IMG/VR virus record: IMGVR_UViG_3300019776_000128
Span: 1 to 40,420 of that record
Source of the DNA: a virus
DNA: 40,420 bases
Direction: 5' to 3' (one strand)
Numbering within the stretch: the first letter of the stretch is position 1; every line of letters starts with the position of its first letter. The notes under the pieces are model-generated. The model saw only the letters and a list, made by a program, of their open reading frames with translations. It was not told where the DNA came from and did no database searches. Below are positions 117 through 40,420 of this stretch, piece after piece. The position numbers and the translations under genes are program-made.

Positions 117-794
117 TCACTTGGCTGTGCGCATGGCGTATGCCCATGCCTGTTGCAGCTGCGCAACGAACACCTTGTCGACCACGCGCCCACCGATGGC
201 TGTCATGTCGAAGCGGCGTTTGTATTGGGGCTTAGATGCGAACACCATCAGCGCTTCGATGCGCTTGTTGTTGCCCACGCGTGCGTAAATGCCCCAGCCC
301 CTGCCTGCGTTCTTACCTGCGCCCTTGGGCTTGCCGATGAAGTAGCGGCCTGCTGTGCCTTTGGTGTTCATGTTCTGCGACATGCGCTTGATGGTGGCCA
401 GGCTCACGCCGCCAGTGCTGTCCAGCTTGATGTTGCGGGTGGGCACCAGTGCATTGTCGGGGCCATGCTTGCCCATGCTGTCGAACTTCTTTTCAAAGCC
501 CTTGATGCGACGCTGGCCACCCTGCACCTGGAACTTCAGGTATCGGGCCTGCTGATCCTTGGCGAACACCATGGCGGTCAGGGTTTGCTTGTCTGCCTTC
601 TGCATGGCCCAGGCATTGCGGGTGAACGCATTGGGCCGGTCGAACGCCACGGGGGTCTGGGTCTTGAACTCGTCCCGCACCAGCTGCGCCGTGTTGGTCA
701 GCGCCTTGGCGATGGTGAACGGTGCCTGCCTGCTGGTGAACTGCTCCAGCTGGGGCATGACCTGGCGGATGTTGGATTCGACCGAGATGTTCAT
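117..794 (-). CDS. Putative tail or head-tail completion protein (gpZ/virion morphogenesis-like)
   Basis: A basic protein of 225 residues with no signal peptide or membrane segment. Its general pattern (N-terminal helical part, then a Gly/Lys-rich segment GKPKGAGKNAGRG and a short C-terminal helix) resembles minor tail/virion morphogenesis proteins of the gpZ type, but I recognise no exact family. I chose ATG 794 over the in-frame GTG at 890 because the GTG extension runs into the iteron repeats and an inverted repeat; neither start has a clear Shine-Dalgarno. In the circular genome it is the last gene before cos and lies directly upstream of terS on the same strand. It is therefore probably a late structural gene separated from the others by cos. 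Alternative: an unrelated hypothetical protein. Confidence 0.55.
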   Translation of the reverse strand: MNISVESNIRQVMPQLEQFTSRQAPFTIAKALTNTAQLVRDEFKTQTPVAFDRPNAFTRNAWAMQKADKQTLTAMVFAKDQQARYLKFQVQGGQRRIKGFEKKFDSMGKHGPDNALVPTRNIKLDSTGGVSLATIKRMSQNMNTKGTAGRYFIGKPKGAGKNAGRGWGIYARVGNNKRIEALMVFASKPQYKRRFDMTAIGGRVVDKVFVAQLQQAWAYAMRTAK

Positions 795-879: not shown

Positions 880-1108
880 CTTGCCACCACCTAAGTCATT
901 GTCACCATTGGGAAAAATGCAAAAGGTGGCAAGTGGCAAGTGTTTTAGGTGTCGCCGCCATATATGCGAGTGCATGTGTGCGGCGCTTTGTTTCATCCTC
1001 GTGTGTGTGTAGATGTGTTTTACTTGGAACTTGCCACCTAAACAATGTAAGTCATTGATTTATATGAAGAAAATGAGGTGGCAAGTTAGGTGGCAAGCCG
1101 GTGGCAAG
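880..1108. other. Candidate iteron replication origin (GGTGGCAAG repeats)
   Basis: The 332 bp between the leftmost gene and the primase holds repeated GGTGGCAAG. Exact copies are at 925-933, 1077-1085, 1089-1097 and 1100-1108 on the plus strand, and at 880-888 and 1030-1038 on the minus strand. A one-mismatch copy overlaps at 932-940. The last three plus copies are 12 and 11 bp apart, about one helical turn. The interval also contains an A/T-richer stretch (about 1039-1075). Iterons beside a P4-alpha-like primase-helicase are typical of origins bound by that class of protein (P4 alpha binds its own iterons). Binding and origin function here are inferred. Confidence 0.65.
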
Positions 1109-1125: not shown

Positions 1126-3366
1126 TCAGAACGGCCGATCATTGTCCGCAAAGGCCGGACGCTTGAACCCACCGAACGGCGGCAGCGGATCATTGGCGTC
1201 CAGTTCCTCGCGGATCTTGGCCTTGGATGCTGGCGTCCCGTCGTACTCCATGGGCCGCCTGATCCAAACGTGGCACTTGCGGCCGTCCCACTTGATCACA
1301 TCCTTGACCTTCTCAAACTTCAGTTCGCTTAGTGCTTGGGACATGCGGCTGGTCTGGATGGTGCGGTTTTCCATGTCACGCAGTGCCACGTTAAGCGCCT
1401 TGGTTTCGACCACGTTCAGGCTCACGCCTCTGGCACCAGTCTCCAGAATGGCTTGGATGGACTGTGCGTCGGCGGACATGCTGTGGCTGATCATGTAGCG
1501 CTTGGCCTGCGTCATGGCCGGGCCTTCGTTGCGGTCGAAGTCGGCCAGGTCAACACTCATAAGCCAGCCACGGATCACCTCGGGGTTATCCCTGATGGCG
1601 TAGTCATTCAGGCGCGCCCAGTAGTCCTTGTCCATTTGCGACGTGACTTCCTCGCGGCTGTTAAACCGGGTGAAGAAAACGCCCCATCGGCGGTCGTCTG
1701 GGTCCAGCACCAGGGCGTCGCGGAAATTGGACAGGGCGATGTAGTTCTGGGTGTTGGCCACGTTCTTGCTGTTCTTGCCCTTGGCCACCACGTCCACGAT
1801 GTCGTTGGTGATCAGGGTTTTCAGCTTGTTCATGAAGTCGTGCCGGCTGTGACCTGGCACGCGGATTTCCTCAAAGGTGGACAGACACTTGCCTTCCGCC
1901 CATCCGTTGAAGTCAGACCGCAGGCCTTCCATGCCGACGACCTGGGTATGCTTGCGGCCCATGGCAGCGGTCAGCATCTTTGCAATGGTGGTCTTTCCAT
2001 CGCCAGGCATGCCGACAATCACCGGTGCCCATAGGATTTTCTTACCGGGGTGCTGGACATTGTGGGCCATCCACAGCAGCAGCTGCTGCCAGTCGTGCGG
2101 CAGGATGTTCTGAATATGCCCTAGGCAGATTTTCCATGCGTCCTTGCTCTCCCATGCTGGGTCCGCCTTTGGCACGCTGGTTTCGTTGTAGGTGTTCAGA
2201 TATTTGATGCCGTCCAGAAAGAAGATCGGGTCACCGTTCCACATTGTCGGCAGGTACATCAGATCGTGGACCACCTCGGAATTCTCGACCCTGCGCAGGT
2301 ATTCGGCAGGCTTCATCTTCCGGTGGGCGGGGAACTGCTCCATCAGGTGCAGGTGTTCCATGTTGAAAGCGTCCACGTCCACCAGGCGCATGGTCGGCTT
2401 ATGCACAAACTTGCGCTGGGCGGACACGAACACCCATTCCTCGATCATGGCCTGCGCTGGGTCTAGGATGGCGGGGTTGTTGTCGTTGGACACAGCTGTG
2501 ACGATCTCGGCCACAGCTTCAGCTCCAGCGGATAGCGCCAGGTCGTTGAAGTCGCCAGCCTCTGGCGCCACGACAGTGGCCTGCACAGCTCGGGCTGCCT
2601 GGTTGGCTTTGGTGATGCCGGGATTTCCTGGCGTGTTCACGTCATTGTCGGCGGCAATGATGATTTCAATGTCTTGGAACCGTTCGCGCATTGCCAGCGC
2701 CACAGGCTCTAGATTGCCAGCATTAAAGGCGATTGCCACAGCAGACTGTGTGGACTCGTGAATGCTGGCGGCCGTGGCATATCCCTCGGCAATGTAGATC
2801 TTGCCATCAGGCCGACCGATGCCGCTGTAGCAGCCTTTGATGCGGCCACCAGTCAGGAAACGCTTGTTGCCATCCGGGTCGATGAACTGAAGGCTGTGCA
2901 GCGTTCCGTCCGTTGTTTTCAACGGCACCACCAGCGCATCGCCTGACTGTCGCAGTCCATAGGCCTTCACACCCTTGCGCACCAGGTATGGGTGATTGTC
3001 GTTTGCAACTGGGCAGGCCTCCCAGATCTTGAACGCTTTGTCTCTGGCATCGGCGCGCAGCTGCTCAGTTGCCGCAGCGCGTTCTGCCTTGATGCGCTCC
3101 ATCTTCGCCGCATACTCTGCGCGCTCGGTTGGCGTGAACTCCTGTTCTGATTTGGCGCACCATGAACTGCTGATGTCGTGCTTCCAGCTGCCGAATGCGC
3201 CGGCCGGCACGCCATCGTCGTGCAAAACATACCAGCCGTTTAGGCTGCGGGGTTTGTCGCCGTCGACGGTGAACCGGTGGATCTTGCCGTCTGGGATGAT
3301 TTCGTCGCTTGTACGCAGGCCGGCTGCGGTCATTGCGTCGCGGAATGCGTCGATTGGGTTAAGCAT
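1126..3366 (-). CDS. Primase-helicase, P4 alpha-like (TOPRIM + DUF5906/SF3 helicase)
   Basis: A 746-residue replication protein that should synthesise primers and unwind the phage origin. The N-terminal third carries a P4-type primase region, with a TOPRIM core (IYIAEGYATAA near residue 194, AADND near 240) supplying the metal-binding acidic residues. The C-terminal half is a viral helicase-type ATPase with Walker A GMPGDGKTT near residue 452 and an acidic Walker B-like STFEE about 45 residues later, as in DUF5906 proteins. ATG 3366 is chosen over the upstream ATG 3387 because GAGGT lies 7 nt before it and it falls just after the stop of the preceding gene. It is the last replication gene of the early operon, and the iteron cluster lies immediately downstream. 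Confidence 0.9.
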   Translation of the reverse strand: MLNPIDAFRDAMTAAGLRTSDEIIPDGKIHRFTVDGDKPRSLNGWYVLHDDGVPAGAFGSWKHDISSSWCAKSEQEFTPTERAEYAAKMERIKAERAAATEQLRADARDKAFKIWEACPVANDNHPYLVRKGVKAYGLRQSGDALVVPLKTTDGTLHSLQFIDPDGNKRFLTGGRIKGCYSGIGRPDGKIYIAEGYATAASIHESTQSAVAIAFNAGNLEPVALAMRERFQDIEIIIAADNDVNTPGNPGITKANQAARAVQATVVAPEAGDFNDLALSAGAEAVAEIVTAVSNDNNPAILDPAQAMIEEWVFVSAQRKFVHKPTMRLVDVDAFNMEHLHLMEQFPAHRKMKPAEYLRRVENSEVVHDLMYLPTMWNGDPIFFLDGIKYLNTYNETSVPKADPAWESKDAWKICLGHIQNILPHDWQQLLLWMAHNVQHPGKKILWAPVIVGMPGDGKTTIAKMLTAAMGRKHTQVVGMEGLRSDFNGWAEGKCLSTFEEIRVPGHSRHDFMNKLKTLITNDIVDVVAKGKNSKNVANTQNYIALSNFRDALVLDPDDRRWGVFFTRFNSREEVTSQMDKDYWARLNDYAIRDNPEVIRGWLMSVDLADFDRNEGPAMTQAKRYMISHSMSADAQSIQAILETGARGVSLNVVETKALNVALRDMENRTIQTSRMSQALSELKFEKVKDVIKWDGRKCHVWIRRPMEYDGTPASKAKIREELDANDPLPPFGGFKRPAFADNDRPF

Positions 3367-3376
3367 GTCTGTTACC

Positions 3377-3691
3377 TCACCATGCAACGATGTGTTCGAC
3401 GTTGTTTTCGTTTTCGCCGCACATTCCCCAGGCCACGCGGAATGCGCGCGCCAGCGTGTTGGATGGTGGGTGTTTCCAGCGCAGGCACAGCTTGCCCTGC
3501 ATGTCTGTCGCTTCGGACAGCAGCAGCTCTAGCTGCTCTTTCTCCAGATCCAGAACCGTCGCTGCGATCCTGACTGCTTTCTTCAGGCGGTCAACCCGCC
3601 ACTGATCCTTGGTTTCCCAGGCCACATATTCCATATATTTGCCTTCACCCCACTTCACTGAAACCCGGATGGCCGCAGGGTTAGAAACCAT
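3377..3691 (-). CDS. Hypothetical early protein
   Basis: A 104-residue soluble protein with a central helical, charged segment (DRLKKAVRIAATVLDLEKEQ) and no motif I recognise. It lies 12 nt after a small HTH gene, and its stop is 10 nt before the primase start, so it is part of the same operon. Its position suggests a role in replication or its control, but nothing in the sequence shows this. Confidence 0.7.
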   Translation of the reverse strand: MVSNPAAIRVSVKWGEGKYMEYVAWETKDQWRVDRLKKAVRIAATVLDLEKEQLELLLSEATDMQGKLCLRWKHPPSNTLARAFRVAWGMCGENENNVEHIVAW

Positions 3692-10113: not shown

Positions 10114-10227
10114 CTGTTCGGTGTTGCTGTGATGCGACAGTATAACGGGGCTTTCGTCCGTGTGCGGATGAATAGCGTGTAGAATCCAGCCTTGCCGTGA
10201 TTTGCGGTGAACACTCGAAAGGACGTC
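10114..10227. promoter_or_regulatory. Divergent control region between early and recombination operons
   Basis: This 114-bp region separates the minus-strand HTH gene from the plus-strand RecE-like gene. For the minus strand, TATACT (rc of 10139-10144) is a good -10 with a poor -35. For the plus strand, TAGAAT at 10180-10185 is a weaker -10. A short inverted repeat TCCG-TGTG-CGGA (10157-10168) lies between the two and is a plausible operator for the small HTH protein. Only the minus -10 is reasonably convincing. Confidence 0.5.
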
Positions 10228-11073
10228 ATGCAGACAGGAATTTATGCTGGCATAACCAATGCCGACTATCACGGCGGCCCCGGCATTTCGAAGTCAGGCC
10301 TGGACCTGATCGCCAGGTCGCCGCTGCACTATTGGACGCGCTACCTGGACCCGAACCGCACGCCCACCGAACCCACGCCGTCGATGCGGCTGGGCACGGC
10401 TATCCACACGGCGGTGCTGGAACCTGGTGAATTCGCCAAGCGGCACCATGTGGCGCCGGTGGTTGATCGCCGGACCAAGGACGGGAAAGCCATGTGGGAA
10501 GCGGCAGTGGCCGACGCTGAAGCGGCAGGCGCCGAACTGATCAGCAATGAAGACGCGCAGACCTGCATGGCCATCGCCAAGGTGGTGCGCAACCACCCGA
10601 CGGCGCGCAAGGTGTTCGGCACGGGGCAGGCGGAAATGTCGTGCTACTGGACCGACCGCGAAACGGGCCTGCTGTGCAAGTGCCGCCCGGACTGGCTGGC
10701 CCTGCCGCTGATCGTGGACTTGAAGTCCACCGAAGACGCCAGCGCCGATGGCTTCCAGCGGTCAGCGTGGAACTGGCGGTATTGGGTGCAGGCTGCCTGG
10801 TACGTGGACGGCGTGGAACAGGCCACCGGCCAGCGCCCTGATGCGTTCGTGTTCGGTGCGTTTGAGAAGGCGCCGCCCTATGCCTGCGCGTTCTACTATG
10901 CCGACCAGGCCATGCTCGACATGGGGCGGGCAGAATATCGCCGCCTGCTGCGCATCCTGGCGGACTGTATCTCGTCGGATACATGGCCCGGATACGACAC
11001 CGACGTGCGGCCGCTGGGCCTGCCTGCCTGGGCGCTGAAGGCGGCCAATGACAACGAACGGGGGGCGGCATGA
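10228..11073 (+). CDS. RecE/exonuclease VIII-like PD-(D/E)XK nuclease
   Basis: A 281-residue protein of the RecE C-terminal/DUF3799 type. The start MQTGIYAGITNADYHGGPGI is followed by SKSGLDLIARSPLHYW, the family's conserved opening. The nuclease core is visible as CRPDWL, then VDLKSTEDAS (the D-x-K pair) and the QAAWYVDG helix. Such enzymes degrade one strand from duplex ends so that an annealing protein can pair the rest. ATG 10228 has AAGGA close upstream; the in-frame GTG 10207 does not. It is the first gene of the plus-strand operon and its stop overlaps the methylase start (ATGA). Genome-end processing during circularisation or recombination is the likely role. Confidence 0.88.
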   Translation: MQTGIYAGITNADYHGGPGISKSGLDLIARSPLHYWTRYLDPNRTPTEPTPSMRLGTAIHTAVLEPGEFAKRHHVAPVVDRRTKDGKAMWEAAVADAEAAGAELISNEDAQTCMAIAKVVRNHPTARKVFGTGQAEMSCYWTDRETGLLCKCRPDWLALPLIVDLKSTEDASADGFQRSAWNWRYWVQAAWYVDGVEQATGQRPDAFVFGAFEKAPPYACAFYYADQAMLDMGRAEYRRLLRILADCISSDTWPGYDTDVRPLGLPAWALKAANDNERGAA

Positions 11074-11966
11074 ATCGCATTGAATTCGGGGACTGCCGCG
11101 ACACCATGCGGCGCTGGGCGACCGATGGTGTAAAGGTCCAAACCTGTGTGACCAGCCCGCCGTACTTTGGCCTCCGCGATTACGGACACGACGGCCAGAT
11201 TGGGCTGGAACAGACGCCAGACGAATACATCGCGGCCATGGTCGAAGTGTTCCGTTGCGTCCGTGACGTACTGGCAGACGACGGGACGCTGTGGCTGAAC
11301 ATCGGGGACAGCTATGCCGGCAGCGGCGGCGCTGGATCACAGTTCAAGCCAGGCGGCATTGCCAAGACCGGAACGCAAGCGCCGTCCACTTGGAAAGCTG
11401 AATACAAACAGAAGCCGGTCACGCTGAACGTGCCTGGCTGCAAGCCAAAAGACCTGATCGGCATCCCTTGGATGTTGGCATTCGCCCTTCGCGCTGACGG
11501 CTGGTATCTGCGCCAAGACATCATTTGGCACAAGCCCAACCCGATGCCGGAACCGGCGACCGACAGGTGCGCAAAAGCACACGAATATCTGTTCCTGTTT
11601 TCCAAAAGCAACCGCTACTTTTTCGACTCCAAAGCGATCCAAGAAGCAACGAACGATGGACTATCAAAGCGCAACCGCCGCAGCGTGTGGTCAGTCGCCA
11701 CCCGCCCGTACAAGGGCGCTCACTTTGCCACGTTCCCGCCCGCACTGATCGAGCCCTGCATCCTGGCTGGCAGCAGACCCAGCGACATCGTGCTTGACCC
11801 CTTCATGGGTTCAGGAACCACAGCTCAGGTCGCGCTGCAGCATGGCCGACAGTACCTGGGCTGCGAACTGAACCAAGAATACGGGCCGTTGCAGCAGGAA
11901 CGCATCGCACTAGCCACGCCAGCCAATGACAACATTCCCACCACTGGCGACCTGTTCGCCGCATAA
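11070..11966 (+). CDS. DNA methyltransferase, beta class (N6-Ade or N4-Cyt)
   Basis: A 298-residue site-specific DNA methyltransferase. Catalytic motif IV TSPPYFGLRDYG is near residue 28, and SAM-binding motif I DPFMGSGTT is near the C-terminus. The order IV before I defines the beta class. The motif does not distinguish N6-adenine from N4-cytosine. No restriction gene neighbours it, so it is an orphan: it may protect phage DNA from host restriction. It overlaps the RecE-like gene by 4 nt and so is made with the recombination proteins. The two remaining reading directions here are shadows. Confidence 0.88.
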   Translation: MNRIEFGDCRDTMRRWATDGVKVQTCVTSPPYFGLRDYGHDGQIGLEQTPDEYIAAMVEVFRCVRDVLADDGTLWLNIGDSYAGSGGAGSQFKPGGIAKTGTQAPSTWKAEYKQKPVTLNVPGCKPKDLIGIPWMLAFALRADGWYLRQDIIWHKPNPMPEPATDRCAKAHEYLFLFSKSNRYFFDSKAIQEATNDGLSKRNRRSVWSVATRPYKGAHFATFPPALIEPCILAGSRPSDIVLDPFMGSGTTAQVALQHGRQYLGCELNQEYGPLQQERIALATPANDNIPTTGDLFAA

Positions 11967-11981
11967 CCCTGAAAGCAAACC

Positions 11982-12974
11982 ATGACCTTTGAAATCCGCA
12001 AAGCACAGCGCCAAGGTGCGCGCCTTCTGATCCAGCTGTCCGGCGTGTCCGGCTCTGGAAAGACCTACACCGCCCTGCAGCTGGCCTATGGCCTGGCTGG
12101 CAACAATGCCGACAAGGTGGTGCTGATTGACACCGAAAACCGCCGGGGCAGCCTGTACGCCAACGTCCTGCCGCAGCCGTTCAACATCCTGGACTTTTAT
12201 GCACCGTTCAGCCCCCAGCGGTACATCGAAGCAATCGACGCCGCCTGCCGCGCTGGCGCTGAAGTGATCGTCATCGACAGCGTGACCCATGAATGGGAAG
12301 GGCCGGGCGGCTGCCAGGAAATTGCGAACGCCACCAAGTTCGCGGACTGGAAGCGCGCCAAAGCGGAACACAAGCGGTTCATGACGCACATGCTGCAGTC
12401 GCCGGCGCACATCATCGCCTGCACCCGTGCGCGCGAGAAAACCGACTTCAGCGACACCCGCAACCCGGTGAAGCTGGGGGTGCAGCCGATCCAGGAACAG
12501 AACTTCAGTTATGAAGCGACCGTCAGCCTGATGATGCAGGACCAGGGCAAACGCCAAGATGTGCTGAAGTGCCCGGCTGAACTGCAGGATGTGCTGGGGC
12601 GTGGCCATGGATACATTGGTGCGGATGATGGCCTGGCGCTGCGCCAGTGGGTGGATGGTGGGGTGAAGGTAGACCCGGCCATCGAACACCACCGCGGCAT
12701 GCTGCTGAACGCCACAGAACAGGGACTTAAGGTTTTGCAGGATGCGTGGGTTTCAACCCCTGCGGCTGTGCGTAAATCTCTTGGTGACCAATTTAAAGAA
12801 CAGCTGAAGGCAGCGGCGGCGGAGTACGAAAAAGTACGGATGTCAGCACAACCGGAGACACCTACATCCATCGCACAGCTGAATTCTGGGGATGGGAATG
12901 AAGGCGCAGTGGACGGGATGAATTCCCAGTCTGTAAAAGTGAACAAACAAGAAACGAATGGGGGTGTATTTTGA
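11982..12974 (+). CDS. RecA-like AAA ATPase (Sak4/AAA_24-like)
   Basis: A 330-residue RecA-core ATPase. Walker A SGVSGSGKTYTAL is near residue 20, a DTENRRGS segment follows, and Walker B VIVIDSVTHEW is near 90. A central ACTRAREKTDF loop and a helical C-terminal region end in a low-complexity polar tail. This matches the AAA_24/Sak4-type recombinases of phages, which anneal ssDNA together with SSB and a RecE-like nuclease. Both partners are encoded here, so homologous recombination/annealing is the likely role. The ATG is 15 nt after the methylase stop. Alternative: a general phage NTPase. Confidence 0.82.
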   Translation: MTFEIRKAQRQGARLLIQLSGVSGSGKTYTALQLAYGLAGNNADKVVLIDTENRRGSLYANVLPQPFNILDFYAPFSPQRYIEAIDAACRAGAEVIVIDSVTHEWEGPGGCQEIANATKFADWKRAKAEHKRFMTHMLQSPAHIIACTRAREKTDFSDTRNPVKLGVQPIQEQNFSYEATVSLMMQDQGKRQDVLKCPAELQDVLGRGHGYIGADDGLALRQWVDGGVKVDPAIEHHRGMLLNATEQGLKVLQDAWVSTPAAVRKSLGDQFKEQLKAAAAEYEKVRMSAQPETPTSIAQLNSGDGNEGAVDGMNSQSVKVNKQETNGGVF

Positions 12975-13177: not shown

Positions 13178-13200
13178 AACAGCACCCGTAACAGCACCCG
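13178..13200. repeat. Arm-type repeat pair, left of attP core
   Basis: Two tandem copies of AACAGCACCCG (13178-13188 and 13190-13200). The same pair occurs on the other side of the attP core at 13403-13425. Tandem repeats flanking an attP core are the expected layout of integrase arm-binding sites. The left copy also runs into the terminator stem. Confidence 0.6.
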
Positions 13201-13226
13201 CTGCGGTTTTCCGTGGCGGGTTTTTT
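13197..13226 (+). terminator. Intrinsic terminator of recombination operon
   Basis: A 10-bp stem CCCGCTGCGG-TTTT-CCGTGGCGGG (two G-U pairs) is followed directly by six T. It lies 26 nt after the excisionase-like stop on the plus strand and ends the recombination operon before attP. The integrase must therefore be transcribed from its own promoter or by read-through. Confidence 0.85.
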
Positions 13227-13251
13227 GTTGGCTAAGTGATTGATTTTGTTT

Positions 13252-13301
13252 TGGTGAGCCCGTCGGGGTTCGAACCCGAGACCCTCTGATTAAAAGTCAG
13301 A
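13252..13301 (-). other. attP core: 50-bp 3' part of a tRNA-Lys(UUU) gene
   Basis: Read on the minus strand, this is a complete 3' tRNA half: anticodon arm TCTGA-CTTTTAA-TCAGA (anticodon UUU), variable GGGTC, T-arm TCGGG-TTCGAAC-CCCGA, acceptor strand CGGGCTC, discriminator A and CCA. Upstream there is no D-arm, so it is not a tRNA gene. It lies next to the integrase and is what integration into a host tRNA-Lys gene would leave in the phage, restoring the tRNA 3' end. The exact crossover core may be shorter. Confidence 0.88.
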
Positions 13302-13309
13302 CATGGGTG

Positions 13310-13335
13310 CATCACCCGGCATCACAGACCATCAC
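13310..13335. repeat. Three CATCAC direct repeats, 10-bp phased
   Basis: CATCAC occurs at 13310, 13320 and 13330, one helical turn apart, just beyond the tRNA-Lys identity. The first copy overlaps an inverted repeat GGGTG-CAT-CACCC (13305-13317). Phased direct repeats next to the core resemble excisionase sites in other att regions. Confidence 0.55.
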
Positions 13336-13402
13336 GGAACACCTGTAAACATTGGACTTTCTGGCCGGGTATGGTGTAAGCCATTGGCGAACCCAGAACC
13401 CT

Positions 13403-13425
13403 AACAGCACCCGTAACGGCACCCG
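13403..13425. repeat. Arm-type repeat pair, right of attP core
   Basis: AACAGCACCCG (13403-13413) and AACGGCACCCG (13415-13425) repeat the pair seen left of attP. The second ends one base before the integrase ATG, so a protein bound here could block integrase transcription or initiation. Confidence 0.6.
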
Positions 13426-13426
13426 T

Positions 13427-14683
13427 ATGACACCCTCTGAAATCACCCGCGCGATCAAATCCTGCACCAGCGAAACCGTCCTGCGTGACAGCACCGGAGA
13501 GCGTGGAAGCGGCGTCTTGATGCTGGTCCTGCGCCGCTACAGCACCGGCGTGACGGCCATGTGGACGGCCATGTGGCAGCAGGACGGCAAGCGCCGCAAA
13601 CTCCAGCTGGGTCGGTATCCCGAAATGGGCCTGGCTGATGCCAGGGCGGCGTTCAATGCCAAGGTGCGGGACGTGCTGGCGGCCAAGCGCAACCCGGCGG
13701 CCATGGCTGTGGCCACCGAACGCCCGACCGTCCAGCGCCTGTTTGATGCGTACTGCGACCGCATGGCTGCCGATGGCAAAGCCAGCGCCGTGGAAGTGCG
13801 CCGGTGCCTGGGCTTCGCAGCCGAACACATTGGTGCCAACAGGCTGGCGGCTGATGTGCACGCCTCGGATGTTTCGTCATACTTGGCCACGATCTATGCC
13901 AGGGGCGCCAAGGTTGCCGCCGACCGGGTGCGGTCGTACCTGTCCGCCGCGTTCAATTTCGGCATGAAGTCGGCCAACGATTACCGGTCAGAACGCCGCC
14001 AGGACTGGGGCATCCAGTCGAACCCCGTGGCGGCCATCCAGAAGGACACCGGCGCCAGCCTGCCGCGTGACCGGGCGCTGACAGCTGGTGAACTGGCCAC
14101 GTTCTGGCACGCACTGGACCGGGGTGGCTTTGCCTTGGAAACCCGCGCGGCCCTGCGGCTGATGATCTGCTGCGGCCAGCGCCTGCGGGAAACCCTGCGA
14201 ATGGAATCGCATGAAGTCGATCTGGACGCTGGCGTTTGGCACATCCCGGCCCACAAGACCAAGGGCGGGCGGTTCCCCCATGCTGTGCCGCTGCCGTCCA
14301 TGGCGGTGGCCATCATTCGGGAGCTGATGCTGGTGCACCGCACGGGGCCGCTGATGCCAATTCAGGACCACTCTGTCACCACGGCGGTCATGCGATGGCT
14401 GGATGATGCGCCGGTGGCTCACTTCCAGGTGCGTGATTTGCGCCGGACGTGGAAGTCACGGGCGGCGGATGCTGGCCTGGACAGGTTCACCCGCGACCTG
14501 ATCCAGCAGCACGCCAAGACCGACACCGGGTCCAAGCATTACGACCGGGCGGACTATCTGCCGCTGGTGACGGACGCCATGAAGAAATGGGACAGGTGGC
14601 TGCGTGCCGCCTTAGTCGCGCCTGAACACGCGGTTCGCACGCTCCCGCAGCTGGGCGCAGTCCAGGCACAGGTGCAGGCCTAG
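13427..14683 (+). CDS. int: Tyrosine-type integrase
   Basis: A 418-residue tyrosine recombinase that should insert the phage into a tRNA-Lys gene. It has an N-terminal DNA-binding part, a core-binding domain (about 90-190) and a catalytic domain. Catalytic Arg is in CCGQRLRETL (R252), box II is VRDLRRT (R336, R339), His/Trp position QQHAK (H362) and the nucleophile is Tyr in SKHYDR (Y372). The first residue of box II is Arg rather than the usual His. ATG 13427 lacks a Shine-Dalgarno and directly follows arm-like repeats; a TTG at 13352 is in frame. The last 23 residues extend past the usual end and overlap an opposite-strand gene. Confidence 0.9.
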   Translation: MTPSEITRAIKSCTSETVLRDSTGERGSGVLMLVLRRYSTGVTAMWTAMWQQDGKRRKLQLGRYPEMGLADARAAFNAKVRDVLAAKRNPAAMAVATERPTVQRLFDAYCDRMAADGKASAVEVRRCLGFAAEHIGANRLAADVHASDVSSYLATIYARGAKVAADRVRSYLSAAFNFGMKSANDYRSERRQDWGIQSNPVAAIQKDTGASLPRDRALTAGELATFWHALDRGGFALETRAALRLMICCGQRLRETLRMESHEVDLDAGVWHIPAHKTKGGRFPHAVPLPSMAVAIIRELMLVHRTGPLMPIQDHSVTTAVMRWLDDAPVAHFQVRDLRRTWKSRAADAGLDRFTRDLIQQHAKTDTGSKHYDRADYLPLVTDAMKKWDRWLRAALVAPEHAVRTLPQLGAVQAQVQA

Positions 14684-40407: not shown

Positions 40408-40420
40408 CGGGGGAATGACC
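40408..40420. other. Right copy of 13-bp terminal repeat, probable cos end
   Basis: The last 13 bases repeat the first 13. They lie just upstream of terS, the usual place for cosN. The 42 bp between them and the terS ATG hold a TCACTAAC half-site that also occurs (inverted) in the repeat near 849-864. Confidence 0.6.

Follow-up and report, generated by a model that had tools for sequence, protein, structure and literature searches.

A probable iteron-type replication origin directly 3' of the primase-helicase gene of a temperate siphophage

The window, i.e. the whole stretch of DNA analysed here, is the entire 40,420-bp IMG/VR virus record IMGVR_UViG_3300019776_000128. Its gene content (TerS and TerL of lambda type, portal, capsid, tape measure, tail J, endolysin and integrase) is that of a full tailed phage, and the phage is a siphophage that bears an integrase (temperate) and packages its DNA like lambda. 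It also has a recombination module of exonuclease VIII/Sak4-like type; exonuclease VIII-like, DNA methyltransferase and Sak4-like genes follow one another on the plus strand at 10207-12974. A direct repeat of 13 bp, CGGGGGAATGACC, occupies the two ends of the record (1-13 and 40408-40420), beside the lambda-type terminase genes, and could be either an overlap left by assembly or a cos overhang. The features needed for the analysis are as follows.

117-794, minus strand: minor-tail-like gene (phrog_1924), ATG at 794, between the candidate origin region and the genome end
795-1125: non-coding candidate origin region, 331 bp, 52% AT compared with 38% for the genome
880-888, minus strand: iteron 6, inverted, 45 bp past the overlapping pair
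925-933, plus strand: iteron 5, the exact partner in an overlapping pair with a 7-bp period
932-940, plus strand: near iteron AGTGGCAAG, overlapping the 925 copy
1030-1038, minus strand: iteron 4, inverted, across the core from the triple
1039-1076: AT-rich core, candidate DNA unwinding element, 38 bp, 79% AT, between GGT-facing iterons 47 bp apart
1048-1060, minus strand: exact IHF consensus WATCAANNNNTTR (AATCAATGACTTA) in the core
1077-1085, plus strand: iteron 3, 12 bp from iteron 2, GGT end towards the AT-rich core
1089-1097, plus strand: iteron 2, 11 bp from iteron 1
1100-1108, plus strand: iteron 1 (GGTGGCAAG), in the primase-proximal triple
1126-3387, minus strand: primase-helicase gene, the putative initiator (TOPRIM_3 primase, DUF5906 helicase, C-terminal winged helix)
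1324-1353, minus strand: predicted recognition helix, residues 679-688 (TSRMSQALSE), helix 364-373 of the 438-aa AlphaFold2 (AF2) model
13178-13425: putative attP, with paired AACAGCACCCG arm-type repeats at 13178/13190 and 13403/13415, adjoining the integrase gene
13352-14683: integrase gene

The putative attP contains a tRNA-like sequence (about 13260-13300) resembling the 3' part of tRNA-Lys on the minus strand. Gene 117-794 stands apart from the structural module; a homologue is found in the same place in contig L129 and a similar gene there in contig L003, and in L129 the tail-like gene is followed by a stretch, AAAAATTCTCGGGTCC, similar to the end repeat.

The original prediction described six exact copies and one near copy of a 9-mer within 880-1108, and a listing of positions bears this out: GGTGGCAAG occurs at 880 and 1030 on the minus strand and at 925, 1077, 1089 and 1100 on the plus strand, with an 8/9 match at 932 (plus), so that both strands are occupied and the copies at 1077, 1089 and 1100 are phased 12 and 11 bp apart, as had been claimed. 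The expected number of GGTGGCAAG in the whole window is 0.79, and six or more were reached in none of 100 shuffles. The genome-wide count of the 9-mer, on which the original prediction had staked its reading, could be made in full because the window is the complete virus record, and it returned no exact copy outside the cluster in the whole 40.4 kb. With up to one mismatch there are 26 matches genome-wide, seven of which form the cluster, compared with 17.5 expected, which leaves the remainder of the genome at the background level. The stretch 880-1108 is non-coding since it lies between the stop of the primase-helicase gene (1126, minus strand) and the ATG of the next gene (794, minus strand), and the gap of 331 bp adjoins that stop, placing the repeats directly downstream (3') of the primase-helicase gene, again as predicted. 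Along the primase gene, with '>' denoting GGT... in its sense, the spacing is '< 11 < 12 < 47 > 98 < 7 < 45 >'. The triple at 1077-1108 on one side, and the copies at 1030 and 880-940 on the other, thereby surround the 79% AT core, which ranks first in AT content among all 40,383 38-mers of the genome. The 331-bp region had no BLASTN match among known phages, and cumulative GC skew of the window, proposed as a check, was uninformative, the genome being mosaic.

The product of the adjacent gene has 753 aa (its start codon is uncertain, being either TTG at 3387 or an internal ATG at residue 8), matches Pfam Toprim_3 (6.6e-14) and DUF5906 (1.6e-16), and is a primase according to PHROG. Its designation as 'P4-alpha-like' holds in part: it shares 34% identity with P4 alpha across 178 aa of the TOPRIM region, with IAEGYATA in both proteins, and both have a DUF5906 helicase; however, Pfam detected none of the Zn-ribbon, D5_N and Pox_D5 matches of P4 alpha. 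An AF2 model of the C-terminal half (residues 316-753, 438 aa; pLDDT 92.7) retrieved in Foldseek the C-terminal region of NrS-1 polymerase (CTR; E 1e-20), the pox D5/E5 helicases and the SaPI5 primase-helicase 7ola, and these matches together with DUF5906, found in P4 alpha too, place the protein among the superfamily-3/D5-type helicases. In AF2 models the C-terminus (residues ~625-753) is predicted to have winged-helix topology; folded alone this domain reached pLDDT 76 with only weak PDB/winged-helix matches, and the P4 origin-binding domain 1KA8 was absent from its top 50 structure matches.

We compared the locus with relatives of the primase, a check that the original prediction had suggested, and found that the iterons remain 3' of the gene and change with its C-terminal half. 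The 38.8-kb contig L003, whose helicase half is 83% identical to that of the window, has exactly six GGTGGCAAG in the record, all in the matching gap and in the same order and orientation, with a spacing of '< 11 < 12 < 47 > 91 < 7 < 46 >' (compare 98 and 45 in the window). Contig L129 has a related primase half (58% identity as far as residue 309), and the next gene too has a homologue there (28%), but its helicase half is unrelated and VapE-type, and its repeats are different (GGTGTACATG). This natural domain swap, with L129 sharing only the primase half and L003 sharing the helicase half and the iterons, supports a link between the iterons and the helicase half. A scan of viral contigs for two copies of GGTGGCAAG gave L003 as the sole primase-adjacent case among the multi-copy matches listed and examined; L118 and L032 have multiple copies but no adjacent primase. 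Similarly, scanning for the core (CTTGCCACC-N36-41-GGTGGCAAG) recovered L003 as a real match, and the three other matches had no primase relative nearby.

A significant cluster of short repeats lies 3' of the gene in 40 of 54 dereplicated DUF5906 relatives, where significance refers to the best repeat within 450 bp downstream of the gene (p<=0.005 from 200 shuffles); on the upstream side the best counts were 1-4, nearly always 1-2. The iteron sequence varies by lineage (GGTTACAAG, GGTTACAGG, GGGCACAAG, GGTCACAAG, GGTAACAAG, GGTTAGAGG, GGTTCGAGG, GGTCCGAAT and others) and usually differs from that of the window, yet in many relatives the geometry '< 12 < 12 < 46-49 > 7 > ~100 < 7 <' recurs. GGT-facing pairs 46-49 bp apart were present at 23 of 47 loci compared with 7.5 by random placement (maximum 17 in 2000 placements), the layout motifs having been picked by eye; when the procedure was automated and applied to held-out loci, such pairs occurred at 12 of 25 compared with 3.3 expected (maximum 8 in 200). 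By the exact-copy test, about a quarter of the relatives (e.g. L158, L166, L172 and L191, and also Vibrio phage 1.111) lack a significant cluster, although degenerate copies are found at the usual spacings in L172 and L191; counting the single best 8-mer overlooks degenerate and low-complexity iterons, such as those of Pseudomonas phage pAN (AACCCAACAC), which were spotted by eye. Clusters are also found 3' of primases with AAA_25, DUF927 and VapE helicases, indicating that the reader is not one family, and the 3'-iteron rule may extend past the DUF5906 group; with about a quarter of the relatives lacking a significant cluster by this test, the rule is broad rather than universal. Clusters were seen in L141 (phiAH14b), L142 (PB15), L237 (pAN), L236 (S1), L131 and L133, and the iterons of other types include GGGGAACAG (DUF927), GGTTCACA (AAA_25), AACCCAACAC, TGTGCGGGAT and TGTGCAGGG. 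Repeats of this kind are also carried by Curvibacter phage PCA1 and Burkholderia phage AH2. A search of genome contigs with a two-sequence alignment returned no relatives; a second search with a wider alignment gave prophage-like loci.

Across the loci the excess of AT is maximal at the core. The exact IHF consensus in the core of the window is one of just three in the genome, another of which (13233-13245) lies within the putative attP, i.e. at a site where IHF is expected, and the core of L003 also carries an exact consensus (AATCAATGACTTA). Exact matches were found in 6 of 23 cores compared with 0.07 by shuffling, and the 400-bp regions of 46 loci contain 14 (the background is 0.015 per 400 bp); held-out loci contain a further 14 compared with 1.8 expected. 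At most loci the core has no exact IHF consensus. The IHF-like core element of the window and L003 is oriented opposite to that of most relatives having it (TAAGTTGTTGATTT in the primase sense; L180, L184, L168 and L170). The consensus in the candidate origin is a putative binding site of IHF.

The base at position 8 of the iteron varies together with residue 679, with which the predicted recognition helix begins (T679 in the window): T accompanies A, and S or G accompanies G. In the first set of loci the counts were T:A 17, T:G 3, S/G:A 0 and S/G:G 12 (p=2e-6), and a tree that left out the winged helix showed seven independent switches of base 8, with the residue following five to six and opposing none. 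Because this column had been picked post hoc and by eye, the rule was recorded before three new scans were made. These added 68 held-out loci, all <95% identical to the first set, of which 28 had usable iterons; T, S or G stood at 679 in 21, and here the counts were T:A 10, T:G 2, S/G:A 0 and S/G:G 9 (p = 2.2e-4). T was thus paired with G in 2 of 12 cases, and the other seven loci have N, K or V at 679 and are outside the reach of the rule. The switch is present between close relatives, L213 (S; GGTTACAGG) and L215 (T; GGTCCCAAG), at 92% helicase identity. Of the evidence gathered, this covariation speaks most strongly for reading of the iterons by the protein itself, and it predicts that a T679S protein would prefer G at base 8 (with GGTGGCAGG and GGTTACAAG as contrast sequences to GGTGGCAAG).

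Several known systems resemble this arrangement. In phage-inducible chromosomal islands (PICIs) pri-rep is followed at once, on its 3' side, by the origin, where two sets of iterons enclose AT-rich DNA, and for EcCICFT073 of E. coli (Fillol-Salom et al. 2018) the initiator and origin region are sufficient for plasmid maintenance (PMC6092414). Like the window, EcCICFT073 has its origin immediately 3' of a primase-helicase gene (D5_N/DUF5906), two iteron sets flanking an AT-rich stretch, an iteron of GGT...AG form (GGTAGACAG) and GGT-facing iterons around AT-rich DNA (in the island 49 bp apart, with a spacing of '< 9 < 49 >'); unlike the window, it is satellite-borne, its iteron sequence is another, the region has no exact IHF consensus, and its protein has no TOPRIM Pfam match. 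In P4, crr is directly 3' of alpha with type 1 repeats on both strands, the 9-mer consensus GGTGAACAG has 6 of 9 positions in common with GGTGGCAAG, and alpha combines a TOPRIM domain bearing the EGYATA motif with a DUF5906 helicase; in contrast to the window, P4 lacks a 46-49-bp core and carries another cluster (ori) some 4.5 kb from the first, and alpha has the Zn ribbon, D5_N and Pox_D5 domains, which were not detected in the window protein. The self-loading helicases SaPI Rep and SCCmec Cch2 have their origin directly downstream and read its iterons with a C-terminal domain (PMC7581432). The window shares with them the downstream position and the structural match to 7ola, although they belong to Gram-positive islands with other iterons (AAGTG in SCCmec) and their sequences are only distantly related.

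Three other functions for the repeats were weighed. They lie upstream of the tail-like gene 117-794 and could be operator sites at which a phage repressor or activator controls it; operators can consist of inverted and direct repeats within AT-rich DNA, and promoters are another place where IHF acts. However, a promoter and terminator scan found nothing, with no sigma-70-like promoter in 700-1300, the winged helix of the primase covaries with the repeats, and the iterons accompany the primase even where another gene comes next (Silvanus has an endolysin there, PCA1 a late activator, P4 an attP-side gene and the PICI a small hypothetical gene), so that control of that gene is a very unlikely role. 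A packaging signal, i.e. cosB-like TerS sites about 0.9 kb from the genome end, would fit the 13-bp end repeat, the lambda-type TerS/TerL at the opposite end of the record and the annotated cos that the primase adjoins in BcepNazgul and PibeRecoleta. Nevertheless, a whole gene separates the repeats from the genome end, the equivalents in P4 and the PICI are replication elements, and in PB15, PCA1, Silvanus and phiAH14b, where the repeats again come after the primase, the displayed flanks contain no terminase gene, which makes packaging an extremely remote prospect.

The third alternative accepts a role in replication but places the true start elsewhere, the repeats being a secondary cis-acting control element like crr of P4, where one cluster is 3' of alpha and the other, ori, some 4.5 kb off. 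The window has one cluster only, which holds the most AT-rich 38-mer of the genome, and in a PICI sharing that core the site used for replication is the one 3' of pri; we consider a secondary element highly improbable.

The reading that we favour is that the repeats are the replication origin of the phage, bound by its own primase-helicase; on comparative evidence this is very probably correct, and an origin bound by the adjacent primase-helicase is strongly supported as by far the best explanation. The candidate origin of the original prediction gains its support from features computed directly (position, iteron conservation, recurrent geometry, AT-rich core, IHF-consensus enrichment and helix-iteron covariation): in the relatives the iterons stay 3' of the gene, change with its C-terminal half and often keep a fixed geometry around AT-rich DNA, they covary with the predicted DNA-reading helix, and the arrangement matches P4 crr and the EcCICFT073 PICI origin. 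As to mechanism, we infer that the C-terminal winged helix of the TOPRIM-DUF5906 primase-helicase would bind the GGTGGCAAG iterons, and that the two iteron groups, with GGT ends facing across the 38-bp core, would place two helicase assemblies head to head for a bidirectional start. Host IHF would bend the core and aid its melting, the helicase would load itself on the opened strands, and the TOPRIM half would then lay the first primers. The window carries the tested sequence features of the PICI/SaPI-type organisation except the satellite context, the gene set being that of a complete phage, and on these features we class the element with the PICI/P4 iteron origins, as a putative member carried by an autonomous temperate phage.

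By the same kind of evidence, the PICI origin layout appears to be common in autonomous tailed phages, which argues against the claim that such an organisation occurs in no replicon but PICIs (PMC6092414). As far as we searched the open PMC literature, three findings are new, namely the geometry that recurs in many phages, the IHF consensus and the residue-base code, although subscription journals may hold an earlier description. For most phages the origin is unknown, and the results offer a search rule: about 400 bp 3' of a DUF5906 primase-helicase gene, GGT-facing iterons 46-49 bp apart around AT-rich DNA. We give even chances to the broader proposal that a single design, in which a recurrent geometry is combined with an exchangeable 9-bp password set by a few recognition-helix residues, is common to PICIs and diverse autonomous tailed phages; with the password set in this way, origin specificity would be predictable from protein sequence. 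The residue-base code for origin specificity is testable, and near-identical natural pairs are ready comparisons. The password changes fast between close relatives (L213/L215), perhaps because this avoids cross-talk with co-resident phages and satellites, and satellites and full phages would be linked by the layout of their origins.
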